A stretch of DNA of 58,960 bases, taken from assembly GCA_027490055.1 (NCBI GenBank), contig JAIXYV010000006.1, positions 1-58,960 of the forward strand. Direction: 5' to 3'. Source of the DNA: Bacteroidota bacterium. GTDB lineage: Bacteria > Bacteroidota > Bacteroidia > NS11-12g > UBA955. Shown here piece after piece: positions 54,273 through 58,960 of this stretch (positions are counted from its first letter, which is position 1; every line of letters begins with the position of its first letter). A program made the translations under genes and the position numbers. Below the pieces are notes generated by a model, which saw only the letters and a list, made by a program, of their open reading frames with translations, did no database searches and was not told the origin of the DNA.

Positions 54273-54752
54273 TTAATCATTGAAAATTGCTTTGTTTACG
54301 AATGGTTTTAGTATGTCCATTGATGATCGGTCTTTCCAAGCGCCAATGCAGTATTGGGTTACAACAGTTTTAAATGGTTTGATTTGTTCGATTACAAAGA
54401 CGGGGTGTTTTTTAGGATTGCGGTAATATTTGATGTTGAAGTTTTTGTTTTTAATGTAAAGTCTTTTTAGCTTTGGTTTAAGGATTCCACTAGCAATCAC
54501 TAATGTGATACTATCTGAATCAGGCTTGTAATAGGCGCGATAGATGTAAGTTTTGAAAATGCCATATTTGAAGATAGATAATTGTGATGAAACGAGGGCA
54601 ATTAAATAAAATGGGACAAAAAATTGATTGTTAATACATTGTAAAATAACACCAAGAGTAGCGGATACAAGAAATAAAAAAGTAAATTTATATATGGAAG
54701 AGTTTTTTAATTTTAGAAAAAAATTGATTGTCTGGTTATGAATTAACTTCAT
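54273..54752 (-). CDS. Small membrane protein downstream of RHS tip 1 (possible immunity protein)
   Basis: A 159-residue protein with two hydrophobic segments (about 22-40 and 43-60) followed by a soluble basic part with segments PKLKRLYIKNKNFNIKYY and QIKPFKTVVTQYCIGAWK. I do not recognise a family. It starts 4 bases after the RHS tip 1 frame. In RHS and other polymorphic-toxin loci the gene directly after a tip usually encodes its immunity protein, so that role is inferred from position only. Confidence 0.5.
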   Translation of the reverse strand: MKLIHNQTINFFLKLKNSSIYKFTFLFLVSATLGVILQCINNQFFVPFYLIALVSSQLSIFKYGIFKTYIYRAYYKPDSDSITLVIASGILKPKLKRLYIKNKNFNIKYYRNPKKHPVFVIEQIKPFKTVVTQYCIGAWKDRSSMDILKPFVNKAIFND

Positions 54753-54756
54753 GGAA

Positions 54757-55869
54757 TTACTTCTGTATTTTTACAAGTTTTATTGGTGCTTTTTTTGATT
54801 GAAGAACATCTTGGTCAGTTTTTAGAACTTTTAAGCCAGAACTATTTAAGTCAATAAATTTAGGGTCAAATTTTTTATCATTGATTTTACTAAGAGTTGC
54901 CTTTTGGGGCAATTTACTTATTCTGTTTGATTGAATAGAGCCAGAGGATTGTGTGCTCGATATAACTACTGGATTTTTAAAGTTCTTTTGGTTTAGATCT
55001 GAATTCGATGAATTATTAATGTTGTTCATGATTTCTGCGGCAGTATAGGTCATACTAACTATAGAAATGATGTTGCCAGCTTTCTCTAGCTCATTCGAAG
55101 TTGGAAAATTCATTGACAATCCACCCTCTATTAGTTCAAGTACTCCTGTTATTGTTTTAGTAGTAGAATTGTCGCCATTTACAATCTTTAAAGTCGCGCT
55201 AAATGTGGCACCAACATATGAAGTTGGAACTACTTTTTCAGCTTCTGTTTCACCTGCTAAATTTAATCCTATTTTAATTAACCCTCCAGAAATAGCCATA
55301 GAACCTGATAGCACAGTTGTAACTGTTGCGAATACAGATGGAGTTGCAGCTCCAGCTGTCGCAGCTATTGCAATAGCACCACCAGCTATAGTGACTGTTG
55401 GAATAATATATTTATCCGTAATGTCTTTTACTTCAGAAGCACATTTATTAACTGTTTCGACGCATTGGTTTGCAGTATTTTGATTGATCCCAATATCGTT
55501 CCATAAAATTGATTCTGCGGATTCTAGACCTTCGTTCTCGACAAATCTAATCACCTTGTTTTCGCAAAAGTTATAATTTCCATTCCATGGGTATTTTTTG
55601 TTTATCGGGTCAATGGATATAAATCTTCCTGTTTTTGCATCAAATAATCGAAATTTGAATTCAAAATAATCCTCAATGTCATTGATCTCAAAATCTTTCT
55701 CTTGTCCATTAAACCCATACCTATACCCCCTGCTAACATCGCTCCAGGCGCGGTTTGGCAAAGAACTACCAAAGGGAGAGGCTATGAGGCGGGCGCTTGG
55801 CCTTTTCAACACTGGTAATGAATTGAAGTTATAAGAAGTTAAATTGAGCACTCTTAGTTTAGTTTTCAA
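54757..55869 (-). CDS. RHS-core remnant with Gly/Ala-rich hydrophobic tip (RHS tip 1)
   Basis: A frame of about 370 codons holding only the last part of an RHS core (SPFGSSLPNRAW, SRGYRYGFNGQEKD, FRLFDAKTGRFISIDP, NKVIRFVENEG; about residues 31-114). A tip with a Gly/Ala-rich hydrophobic stretch (about 155-205) and a Ser/Lys-rich C-terminus follows. The repeat region of a full RHS protein is missing. The frame opens with TTG at 55869, with a GTG at 55851 as alternative, so it may be a displaced, silent tip. The core DNA contains 40 bases identical to the right edge of the window. Confidence 0.65.
   Translation of the reverse strand: MKTKLRVLNLTSYNFNSLPVLKRPSARLIASPFGSSLPNRAWSDVSRGYRYGFNGQEKDFEINDIEDYFEFKFRLFDAKTGRFISIDPINKKYPWNGNYNFCENKVIRFVENEGLESAESILWNDIGINQNTANQCVETVNKCASEVKDITDKYIIPTVTIAGGAIAIAATAGAATPSVFATVTTVLSGSMAISGGLIKIGLNLAGETEAEKVVPTSYVGATFSATLKIVNGDNSTTKTITGVLELIEGGLSMNFPTSNELEKAGNIISIVSMTYTAAEIMNNINNSSNSDLNQKNFKNPVVISSTQSSGSIQSNRISKLPQKATLSKINDKKFDPKFIDLNSSGLKVLKTDQDVLQSKKAPIKLVKIQK
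55709..55748. repeat. Exact 40-base RHS-core repeat, copy 1
   Basis: This stretch, coding for SDVSRGYRYGFN on the minus strand, is identical to 58921-58960. The identity may continue beyond the right edge. Confidence 0.9.
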
Positions 55870-55881
55870 GCAAATTTAGGG
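55848..55881 (-). promoter_or_regulatory. Shared upstream element of displaced RHS tips, copy 1, with -7 box
   Basis: These 34 bases match 57514-57547 at 29 positions and contain a perfect minus-strand -7 element TAAATTTG (55871-55878). The same element precedes RHS tip 2, so each displaced tip may have its own promoter. Confidence 0.5.
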
Positions 55882-55955
55882 TGGAGGTTTCAAGTGGGTA
55901 AATTTTAATAATGAATTTAAATTTAATAAAAAAACTGTGAATTAATATTTGGAAA

Positions 55956-56438
55956 TTAACAATAGCTGCTGACAATTTCTAATTTTTTACTTTTGTTTTT
56001 ATATTTCCTTATTACTTTCCACTTTCTATAGTTTAAGCAAGTATTTTTAAATTTAACAACCAAGCTCTGATGTTTCATTTTGGAGAAAAATGTGTTTTTA
56101 AATACCATATCTTTACTTACATACATTATCTCTAATTGGATATTTAGTTTACATCTAATTTTCAAAACACTATCTGTAACATATAGCCCTATTGTGTCCA
56201 AAAGGAATTCAAATTCTTTATATCTGAAATAAAAAAACTCACCAAATGCACTTTTCTGACCCAATGAGTCACTCTTGTAAAATATGAAATTTAATGGCAT
56301 TAACGTATCATTGTATTTTAAGACCTCTTTTTCACATTTAATTTCATTTATTATACATTTTCCTTTAGGTTGTCCATAACAATGAGATAGTGAATTCAAA
56401 ATCAAAACAATCGTAATCCCCATTCTATATTTAGTCAT
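55956..56438 (-). CDS. Secreted hypothetical protein downstream of RHS tip 2
   Basis: A 160-residue protein with a signal peptide (MGITIVLILNSLSHCYG, start at 56438 or 56423). The mature part is basic and cysteine-containing, with no family I recognise. The start overlaps the RHS tip 2 stop by 8 bases. As the gene directly after a tip it is a candidate immunity protein, acting outside the cytoplasm if the signal peptide is real. The AT content is high, as in the whole array. Confidence 0.5.
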   Translation of the reverse strand: MTKYRMGITIVLILNSLSHCYGQPKGKCIINEIKCEKEVLKYNDTLMPLNFIFYKSDSLGQKSAFGEFFYFRYKEFEFLLDTIGLYVTDSVLKIRCKLNIQLEIMYVSKDMVFKNTFFSKMKHQSLVVKFKNTCLNYRKWKVIRKYKNKSKKLEIVSSYC

Positions 56439-57450
56439 TAATGTTCTCATTGGTTTTATCCAAATCATTTTTTTCATTATATTTTTTATAAATTTCACTA
56501 TCAGTTTTCCCTTTTTCACTATTTATCAATTTTAATGCTTCATAATCTACTGATTTAGATAAGATGGCCTCCGAGTTGTAAAAGTAAACTTCTAACTTAA
56601 TACCAATGTTTTCATCAGAATTATTGGGGTTTATTGGTCGATTTTGCCCAATGATAATATTTGTTTTAAAATATTTAAATGTAATTTTATCTTCTTCTGA
56701 AGGACCTATTTCAGAGAAACACACTTCAGAATTAAGATGATCAATGTTATTTAAAATTGGGTGATTGTGTATGCTATAATTATATTGAACAGATTCGTTA
56801 AAAGGAATTTCAGCAGAAGCTTTACAGTTTTTATCATCGATCTGTTCTCCATTTATTATTCCAGATGATTTCATTTTGTCATCAAAAACTAATGCAGATT
56901 CGTGCTCTCCAGCTGGTATTAGAATTTTAGTTGGGTCATCTGAAGCTAATACTGGTGCATCTGAAGCCGTTTGAACTGCTATGACGGCATCTATAACAGA
57001 CTTTTCAGGCAGGGAGTAGAATAACCCATTAGGTATTTCACTAACCCAATTTGTACCAAGTTTCGAACTTTTAATAATTTTCTTCGCTAACTTATTGTCA
57101 GTTATTATATAAATTTCAGTTTTAGTTGTTTCATTGCCATCCGTTCCAATCCAATTGCCGCTTTGGTTATAAAAATCTCTTTCTCCATTTTTGTCAATTA
57201 CTACAATTGGTGATGAATTTAAAGCTTTATAGTTGGACCCTGAAAATAGACTATAAGGATCCAAGCTCAACCATCTCCCCAATCTGCCATCATATATCCT
57301 TGCTCCAAAATCGAAATTATCACTCGCTGTTTCGGAGTCTTTTTCCTTGCCATTAAACCCAAATCTATATCCTCTATTGCCATCATTCCAGGCTCGATTT
57401 GGGAGTGAACTCCCGAATGGAGGGTAATTTGGTGGGTGGCATGAGGTCAT
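56431..57450 (-). CDS. RHS-core remnant with JAB/MPN-like tip (RHS tip 2)
   Basis: A 339-residue frame. Residues 11-90 are the end of an RHS core (PFGSSLPNRAW, NRGYRFGFNGKEKD, DFGARIYDGRLGRWLSLDP). The tip contains HNHP (His 228 and 230) and GPSEED (Ser 251, Asp 254), with an upstream Glu in GEHESALVF (182-188), the pattern of JAB/MPN (JAMM) metalloproteases found among polymorphic toxins. The His-to-Ser spacing is longer than in canonical JAMM, so the call is tentative. The start at 57450 gives no signal peptide. Confidence 0.65.
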   Translation of the reverse strand: MTSCHPPNYPPFGSSLPNRAWNDGNRGYRFGFNGKEKDSETASDNFDFGARIYDGRLGRWLSLDPYSLFSGSNYKALNSSPIVVIDKNGERDFYNQSGNWIGTDGNETTKTEIYIITDNKLAKKIIKSSKLGTNWVSEIPNGLFYSLPEKSVIDAVIAVQTASDAPVLASDDPTKILIPAGEHESALVFDDKMKSSGIINGEQIDDKNCKASAEIPFNESVQYNYSIHNHPILNNIDHLNSEVCFSEIGPSEEDKITFKYFKTNIIIGQNRPINPNNSDENIGIKLEVYFYNSEAILSKSVDYEALKLINSEKGKTDSEIYKKYNEKNDLDKTNENIND

Positions 57451-57513
57451 TAAACTGGATTTAAAAATACGTTAAATATAAAAGTTTATTATCATGTAAG
57501 GTTGCTGATTTAG

Positions 57514-57547
57514 GCACTTTTGGTTTAGTTTTAGAACAAATTTAGGG
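57514..57547 (-). promoter_or_regulatory. Shared upstream element of displaced RHS tips, copy 2, with -7 box
   Basis: This matches 55848-55881 at 29 of 34 positions and contains a perfect minus-strand TAAATTTG (57537-57544), about 85 bases before the tip 2 ATG. The rest of the 232 bases between tip 2 and the next gene shows nothing recognisable. Confidence 0.5.
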
Positions 57548-57682
57548 GGATTTTGGGAGGAAATAAAGCGATAAATTCAAAGATTGGCGAGCTGATATTT
57601 ACATTTATTTTCGCAATGGTTTAAAATTGGAGGTTTTTCCATTTAATTTTGGGTATAAAGAAGTTATTTCATCTTTATGTAT

Positions 57683-58216
57683 TTACCTTTTTATGCTATC
57701 GATATATTTTTGAAATAATAATGACGATGAAGGTATTTTTTGGTTTTTATAAATTTCATCAATATCATTTTGAGCCCAAATATAGCCTAATTCTCTTGAT
57801 TTTAATAATGTATATAAAGCGTAAAACCTTGTTTTTTCATCTAATTTAGAATAATCTAATATATCTGAATAAAGACATGTTAAAATGCTAAATTGATCAT
57901 AATACGCATTACCATAGTTATTCTTATTAGCCATTTGAAACGCAGTTGGAAAGAAACGATCTTCAATGTCATTGCTAAAAAAATAATTCGATAATTTTGA
58001 GTAAGCAAAAGTGTCATTCATTTCCACCGATAGATATATTAAACTATCTATTGTTTTTTGTGATAAAATATAAGTTAAAGAAATGTTTGGAGATTTGTCA
58101 TCGTTGAAGTTCTTACAATTGTTGTCACAACCCATATTAAGAAACTGAATGATAATTAAACTAAGGTATAGGCTTTTTAAGCCCCTTTTTAGGTTTATAT
58201 GTCCCGGAATATGCAT
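57683..58216 (-). CDS. Lipoprotein downstream of RHS tip 3 (possible immunity protein)
   Basis: A 177-residue protein with a basic N-terminus, a hydrophobic segment and a lipobox-like LNMGC, then a helical soluble part (KSRELGYIWAQNDIDEIYKN). I recognise no family, though the tail has a faint Sel1-repeat look. The ATG at 58216 lies inside the end of RHS tip 3 (56-base overlap), so the two are tightly coupled. A periplasmic immunity role is inferred from position. Confidence 0.5.
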   Translation of the reverse strand: MHIPGHINLKRGLKSLYLSLIIIQFLNMGCDNNCKNFNDDKSPNISLTYILSQKTIDSLIYLSVEMNDTFAYSKLSNYFFSNDIEDRFFPTAFQMANKNNYGNAYYDQFSILTCLYSDILDYSKLDEKTRFYALYTLLKSRELGYIWAQNDIDEIYKNQKIPSSSLLFQKYIDSIKR

Positions 58217-58960
58217 AAACTTTTTTAAATTTCTTGATACCATTTATAATTGTAACAAATCCTCCTTGTCCAGTATTTTTTACTTTTTCATCAAGTTGTT
58301 GTTGTGCTCCAATAAATTTTCCGACACTATTAAACATTCCATATCCATCTAAGGCATTTACAACTGACTTATTATTCTTTAAATATAAAAATTCGGAAAT
58401 GTCTTGTGCTATTGTTTTATCTGTTTGTATTATACCTCTCCCAAAATAACAATCATAATACACATTTGATGCTGCATTGCAGGAATATAATACTAGTGTG
58501 ATTTTTGAGCCATTATCTATAGCTTCTTTCCATTCCTTGCAATTATCATACATGTACTTATTAAATTCTTTGGCATTGTTTACTTTTATTTTTTTGCCGT
58601 CACCTATTTGAAAGCTAATGCCTTTTGAGCTGGAATGAGCAAATACGGCAAAAACACCATCATTAATTTGGTTTTTTACATTAGCAGTTGCTGCATTTTT
58701 TAAGGAGTTTGTTTCGTTTTTTAGTCCATTAACACTTATGGTATCACCATATAAATCAACAAACCAGATAGGGTTATTTAAGAAACAGTTATAATTTGAG
58801 TTTGATGGATTCGGTTTAGGGTCTAAATTAAATCTTCTTCCTAACATAGGGCTGTATTGCCAAAATTCTGCAGTGTAAGAATTACCTTCACCTGATACCT
58901 CATTGTCTTTTTCTTGTAAATTAAACCCATACCTATACCCCCTGCTAACATCGCTCCAGG
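58161..58960 (-). CDS. RHS-core protein with caspase-like tip, 5' end outside window (RHS tip 3)
   Basis: The frame is open to the right edge and encodes SDVSRGYRYGFNLQEKD and FWQYSPMLGRRFNLDP, the end of an RHS core. The tip has a His in FAVFAHSSSKG and a Cys in LVLYSCNAAS (codon 58479-58481), the His/Cys dyad layout of caspase-like (clan CD) peptidases, followed by KTIAQDISEFL. This fits a protease toxin tip. The upstream RHS repeats, if present, lie beyond the window, so this could be the main gene of the array. Confidence 0.65.
   Translation of the reverse strand, partial: WSDVSRGYRYGFNLQEKDNEVSGEGNSYTAEFWQYSPMLGRRFNLDPKPNPSNSNYNCFLNNPIWFVDLYGDTISVNGLKNETNSLKNAATANVKNQINDGVFAVFAHSSSKGISFQIGDGKKIKVNNAKEFNKYMYDNCKEWKEAIDNGSKITLVLYSCNAASNVYYDCYFGRGIIQTDKTIAQDISEFLYLKNNKSVVNALDGYGMFNSVGKFIGAQQQLDEKVKNTGQGGFVTIINGIKKFKKVYAYSGTYKPKKGLKKPIP
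58921..58960. repeat. Exact 40-base RHS-core repeat, copy 2 (at the window edge)
   Basis: Identical to 55709-55748. The tip sequences after it are unrelated, which marks this as the likely recombination junction of the array. Confidence 0.9.

Follow-up and report, generated by a model that had tools for sequence, protein, structure and literature searches.

Putative displaced RHS tip-immunity cassettes with promoter-like boxes and a linked tyrosine recombinase in a Bacteroidota lineage

In polymorphic toxin systems with standalone cassettes, a constant body carries a variable C-terminal toxin, an immunity gene lies behind it and spare cassettes are kept elsewhere; expression is attributed solely to the complete toxin and the immunity gene next to it, and a lipoprotein immunity protein counts as an exception (PMC3482391). 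In Salmonella, orphan rhs genes have been proposed to act as type II toxin-antitoxin systems driven by internal promoters (PMC7043789). For the T6SS effectors of Vibrio cholerae, sequential displacement has been described, with old effector-immunity genes remaining behind the current one (PMC5361080). The usual account of how a tip can be changed without losing protection is rare homologous recombination among silent spares.

The locus studied here, from a Bacteroidota bacterium, resembles the polymorphic toxin systems: RHS cores stand before variable tips, a full-length gene carries the same core, and tip-immunity pairs occur on main genes as well as on orphans. Unlike the systems reviewed in PMC3482391, its cassettes bear promoter-like boxes and start codons, and an export-like N-terminus of the immunity protein is the rule. 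With the Salmonella orphans it shares an RHS toxin that has a start codon and a promoter (here a promoter-like box) of its own. In Salmonella, however, the promoter lies inside the core and is common to main and orphan genes, whereas here the box and leader precede the core and are seldom seen at that place in main genes; judged by their N-termini, the immunity proteins here would also be of an envelope type, unlike those of Salmonella. From the V. cholerae effectors the locus differs in its RHS body, in tips kept with their immunity genes and in the linked recombinase. Relative to known systems, box-bearing spares, export-like immunity as a rule and an array-linked recombinase appear to be new, and the array looks functional. 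A text search of the literature returned no shufflon-type or recombinase-linked RHS tip system, which does not by itself prove that there is none. We did not class the array as a polyimmunity locus, which requires uninterrupted immunity genes, since every one of the immunity candidates is preceded by a tip.

The window array and its main gene

The window, that is, the whole stretch of DNA analysed, is an entire contig of 58,960 nt (C97) from a genome of 3.02 Mb in 121 contigs (G000). Three RHS-core ends lie head-to-tail on its minus strand at 54273-58960, each with its own tip followed by a small unique gene (Table 1). This layout, which the original prediction had read from the letters, is borne out by TIGR03696 matches; those of cassettes 2 (57184-57426, E 1.9e-11) and 3 (55525-55779, E 6.8e-10) are above the curated cut-off. 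The core of tip 1 starts beyond the contig end, so that its cut reflects assembly and not biology. Two cores had been described as truncated just before PFGSSLPNRAW; PFGSSLPNR forms the left edge of the RHS part of tips 2 and 3. As predicted, the three tips share no detectable similarity and the region is AT-rich, with a GC content of 0.28-0.35 against 0.37-0.46 in the rest of the window. The small genes, which had been said to match no known family, indeed match none convincingly; a ureidoglycolate lyase assignment for the third was discarded at 17.9 bits against a cut-off of 275. Of the junctions proposed between tips and small genes, the 8-base overlap at tip 1 (ATG at 58168) and the 4-base gap at tip 3 stand, but the 56-base overlap at tip 2 does not: depending on the start codon, tip 2 and its small gene overlap by 89, 47, 38, 20 or 8 bases or are separated by 7. 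The two genes to the left of the array adjoin each other in five congeners, in which no RHS core was found beside them within the 1.5 kb fetched. Judged from these sequences, the window array is accessory.

Table 1. Features of the cassette array in the window
Feature	Position	Strand	Remarks
RHS core end and tip 1	58161..58958	-	TIGR03696 E 0.0025 at 58746-58934; tip 58164-58739
Candidate immunity gene 1	57683..58168	-	ORF; conserved with tip 1 in G013 (E 8.6e-19)
-7 box TAAATTTG upstream of tip 2	57537..57544	-	inside repeat D3 (57514-57547)
Orphan cassette 2	56431..57450	-	ATG leader MTSCHPPNYP, RHS core, tip 2 (56434-57171)
Candidate immunity gene 2	55956..56519	-	ORF; start codon uncertain
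-7 box TAAATTTG of cassette 3	55871..55878	-	inside repeat D3 (55848-55881)
Orphan cassette 3	54757..55851	-	GTG leader, RHS core, tip 3 (54760-55512)
Candidate immunity gene 3	54273..54752	-	ORF

A full-length RHS gene had been expected near the array and was found in the same genome on another contig. A genome-wide search for the core recovered seven copies: three in the window, three on contig C84, which holds a second orphan array with three tips, and one on contig C53, at the end of an open frame of 3956 aa with a signal-like N-terminus and RHS-like repeats. The core motif of this main gene is the same as that of the orphans. All five testable orphan cores of the genome are closer to the resident main gene than to the main genes of other genomes, the narrowest match being 0.73 against 0.70. 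A search for another full RHS gene that could belong to the window array found none. The ends of C53 and C84 share a 16-nt overlap, although this finishes in a homopolymer and no conclusion was built on it. Taken with the order of genes in G016 (main gene, immunity gene, outer-membrane-type protein), it suggests a position for the C84 array downstream of the main gene. The main protein (L015:194-12064) also contains a block of Ycf48-like (PSII_BNR) repeats.

Candidate tip-immunity pairs and their likely site of action

The comparison covered about 90 cassettes, drawn from 17 genomes that belong to the family of G000. RHS cores were present in 11 of 17 genomes of the genus, one of which has 25, and in 13 of 42 near-complete genomes of the family; most tips were unique across the cassettes compared. 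Tip 1 and its immunity candidate both have homologues in G013 (52% and 35% identity, respectively). Tip 2 matches, at 42% identity, the tip that a full-length G011 protein carries; the fetched loci held no homologue of immunity candidate 2. No relative of tip 3 was found in 108 genomes of the order, nor was any homologue of immunity gene 3 found. Within the window, conservation of the pair was thus seen for tip 1, and for tip 2 that of the tip only. Over all cassettes, a tip and its immunity gene were kept together in four comparisons, two of them between the main gene of one species and an orphan of another; the shared pairs include a main gene of G005 with an orphan of G007, a main gene of G014 with an orphan of G013, and orphans of G005 and G013. 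Because tip and downstream gene are conserved together in these four cases, the proposal that the array consists of displaced, swappable tip-immunity cassettes is supported, as it is by a main gene with the same core and by tip families that occur on both mains and orphans elsewhere. The JAB-like tip on the full-length protein of G011 (L067:6442-7182) has one in-frame stop.

None of 75 orphan tips has a hydrophobic, export-like leader, and signal peptides are lacking. Among the downstream proteins, by contrast, 67 of 82 begin with a hydrophobic, export-like segment, versus 20 of 44 ordinary genes of the window (p 4e-5). Candidate immunity protein 1, whose hydrophobic N-terminus ends in ..QFLNMGC, is a possible lipoprotein; immunity protein 2 has a secretion-signal-like N-terminus (..MGITIVLILNSLSHCYGQ), and the N-terminal half of immunity protein 3 is hydrophobic and membrane-like. 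Among the tips, an HExxH motif occurs in 24 of 94 (0.4 expected), a JAMM-like pattern in five and a His/Cys pattern in five, and Pfam matches comprise M91, Tox-MPTase2 (metallopeptidase toxin 2), glucosaminidase, OmpA, LysM and lipase-like families. The recognisable tips thus appear largely peptidase- or lipase-like, their activities being read from motifs. In the window, the His/Cys pattern FAH..YSCNAAS suggests a caspase-like peptidase for tip 1, tip 2 would be JAMM/JAB-like by its motif HNHP..SEED, and tip 3 has a glycine/alanine-rich hydrophobic segment and belongs to no known family. Structure models were poor (mean pLDDT 45 for tip 1 and 35 for tip 2), a fold search with tip 1 gave nothing significant, and profile searches of solved structures gave no match. 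Since the tips look peptidase- or lipase-like and the immunity N-termini export-like, action in the cell envelope is likely. We infer toxicity of the tips and protection by the genes behind them.

Promoter-like boxes and start codons

The Bacteroidota -7 element was searched upstream of the cores as TANNTT[TC]G; its TTTG form is documented (e.g. PMC6847099), and the TTCG variant is our own extension. Of 72 orphans, 48 had such a box. Dinucleotide shuffles gave 9.9 +/- 2.7, the reverse strand gave 17, and among main genes the box stood in 3 of 22. The first start codon past the box was in frame with the core, with the frame open, in 39 of the 47 orphans that allowed this test. The p-values for box frequency in orphans versus mains (Fisher, 1.5e-5) and for the reading frame (3.4e-12 against an expectation of 1/3), like the others given here, overstate independence, the cassettes being of common ancestry. 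The same geometry of box, 19 nt, start, 40 codons and core recurs in cassette 3 of the window, in G002 and in G014.

Cassette 3 obeys this rule, with its box 19 nt before the GTG start (55849-55851). Cassette 2 has the box, but the conserved GTG behind it is out of frame; either a later ATG serves as the start or the cassette is damaged. In G000, three of five testable orphans carry the box, and two orphans on C84 have no exact copy. Some arrays are mostly without boxes (2 of 8 orphans in G013, 2 of 10 in G047). From the predicted boxes and starts, the displaced tips do not look silent, and we infer their expression.

The linked recombinase and the possible exchange of tips

In the R64 shufflon (rci/pilV), a constant gene receives switchable C-termini from cassettes in both orientations, with a tyrosine recombinase at the edge of the array. 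Relatives of our genome resemble it in the linked recombinase and in a constant gene with putatively switchable C-termini, and some of them perhaps in the orientation of the cassettes. The likeness is one of layout, and unlike the R64 cassettes those studied here carry promoter-like boxes and antidote genes. Integrons were set aside as a model, their cassettes being promoterless and those here having promoter-like boxes of their own.

G000 encodes a single copy of the tyrosine recombinase, beside the C84 array; the flank of the window array that lies within the contig has none. The same family stands beside RHS cassettes in ten genomes (G000, G005, G007, G010, G011, G013, G014, G018, G022 and G047), usually abutting the outermost cassette and diverging from it, and a remnant occurs in G002. 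Thirteen matches were found in 70 genomes of the family, one of them (G093) without an RHS core nearby and two cut by contig ends. Among near-complete genomes, the recombinase was present in 8 of 13 with RHS cores and in 0 of 29 without (p 1.1e-5), and its catalytic set looks intact. In G007, G010 and G022, two convergent series of cassettes lie between recombinase and main gene; in G011 contig ends point to both orientations, and no such layout was seen in G000.

Third-position identity peaks at the core edge, at 0.93 for one class of G007, and drops to 0.59 within 15-30 nt. Such a peak would be expected if exchange took place at the core edge, and it fits site-specific and homologous exchange alike. 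The core edge is conserved at third positions, but no short inverted-repeat site common to the arrays was found; an imperfect dyad at the core edge of G000, ATTCGGGAGTTCACTCCCAAAT, was not taken as a recombination site, as by eye it is not common to the other genomes. Direct rearrangement was not seen in the genomes compared. A 1612-nt overlap in G021 proved to be a plain contig overlap. Two contigs of G007, C17 (L056) and C18 (L053), have exactly 141 nt in common at either end, and their sequences part at the core edge. At first they looked like two states of one locus, but recombinase pieces at two other contig ends fit two paralogous loci, which they probably are, and the pair was not used as proof of rearrangement. 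Recombinase-driven tip switching is plausible but unproven.

We consider it fairly probable that these loci form an RHS polymorphic-toxin system in which displaced cassettes stay transcribed and the core is the place of tip exchange, possibly through a dedicated recombinase. A large exported RHS protein would bear one C-terminal tip, while spare tips, all of which open with one short core sequence, would wait elsewhere; a crossover at that sequence would join the RHS body to a new tip followed by the matching antidote gene. Displaced cassettes, which usually have a promoter-like box, a start codon and a short non-exported leader of their own, would yield a tip without an export signal and an antidote that reaches the envelope by its own. 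As most recognisable tips look envelope-acting, a tip that stays unexported may do no harm, and the array would then hold a bank of expressed immunity genes. The candidate for driving the exchange is the tyrosine recombinase next to the arrays. The fuller version, in which a dedicated recombinase would rearrange tips at the core in the manner of a shufflon or integron, between the secreted main gene and promoter-bearing sockets that keep all displaced antidotes expressed, so that tip switching would be programmed, we put forward tentatively, as something that may well turn out otherwise.

Ordinary silent orphan cassettes, recombining by RecA-dependent homologous exchange between core repeats, would make boxes and recombinase incidental. 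This is the classical picture of polymorphic toxins (PMC3482391); the G000 cassettes offer core repeats of ~90-190 nt at 86-93% identity, and no recombinase adjoins the window array on its sequenced flank. The boxes and in-frame starts, however, are far above chance and rare at that place in main genes, and the recombinase family is linked to arrays across genera with an intact-looking catalytic set; we think this explanation rather unlikely. Less likely again are expressed toxin-antitoxin or addiction modules, whose tips would be made inside the cell and kept because loss of the antidote kills. Immunity candidates that mostly look exported and recognisable tips that mostly look like envelope hydrolases fit neutralisation in the cytoplasm poorly, even though cassettes may be started from a promoter-like box and start codon of their own, the tip gene overlaps the immunity gene or lies very close to it, and the Salmonella rhs orphans provide a precedent (PMC7043789). 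That the arrays are decaying debris, pseudogenised RHS gene ends left by tandem duplication and deletion, strikes us as very improbable: low GC, the broken leader of cassette 2, the in-frame stop in the related JAB-like tip and truncated cores in G047 agree with decay, but frames are open, motifs intact and pairs conserved across species, and the box-start-core frame is kept in most testable orphans.

If promoter-bearing spares are indeed served by a site-specific recombinase, tip switching would be a programmed, testable process, and the mutual immunity of kin with different active tips would be explained. The lineage also offers dozens of uncharacterised families of putatively envelope-type tips and immunity proteins.

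A 24-nt element, GGTAGTGTTACAGATGTGTTGATG, lies behind the stop codons of immunity genes in G007 (L053-L056) and G022 (L101-L102). It is absent from G000, and genome-wide it occurs only in the RHS arrays of those two genera. A protein of ~810 aa (L014:9457-11889), with no Pfam match and a secretion-signal-like N-terminus, is encoded in G000, G005, G007, G013, G014 and G016 beside either the recombinase or the main RHS gene and may be part of the RHS locus.
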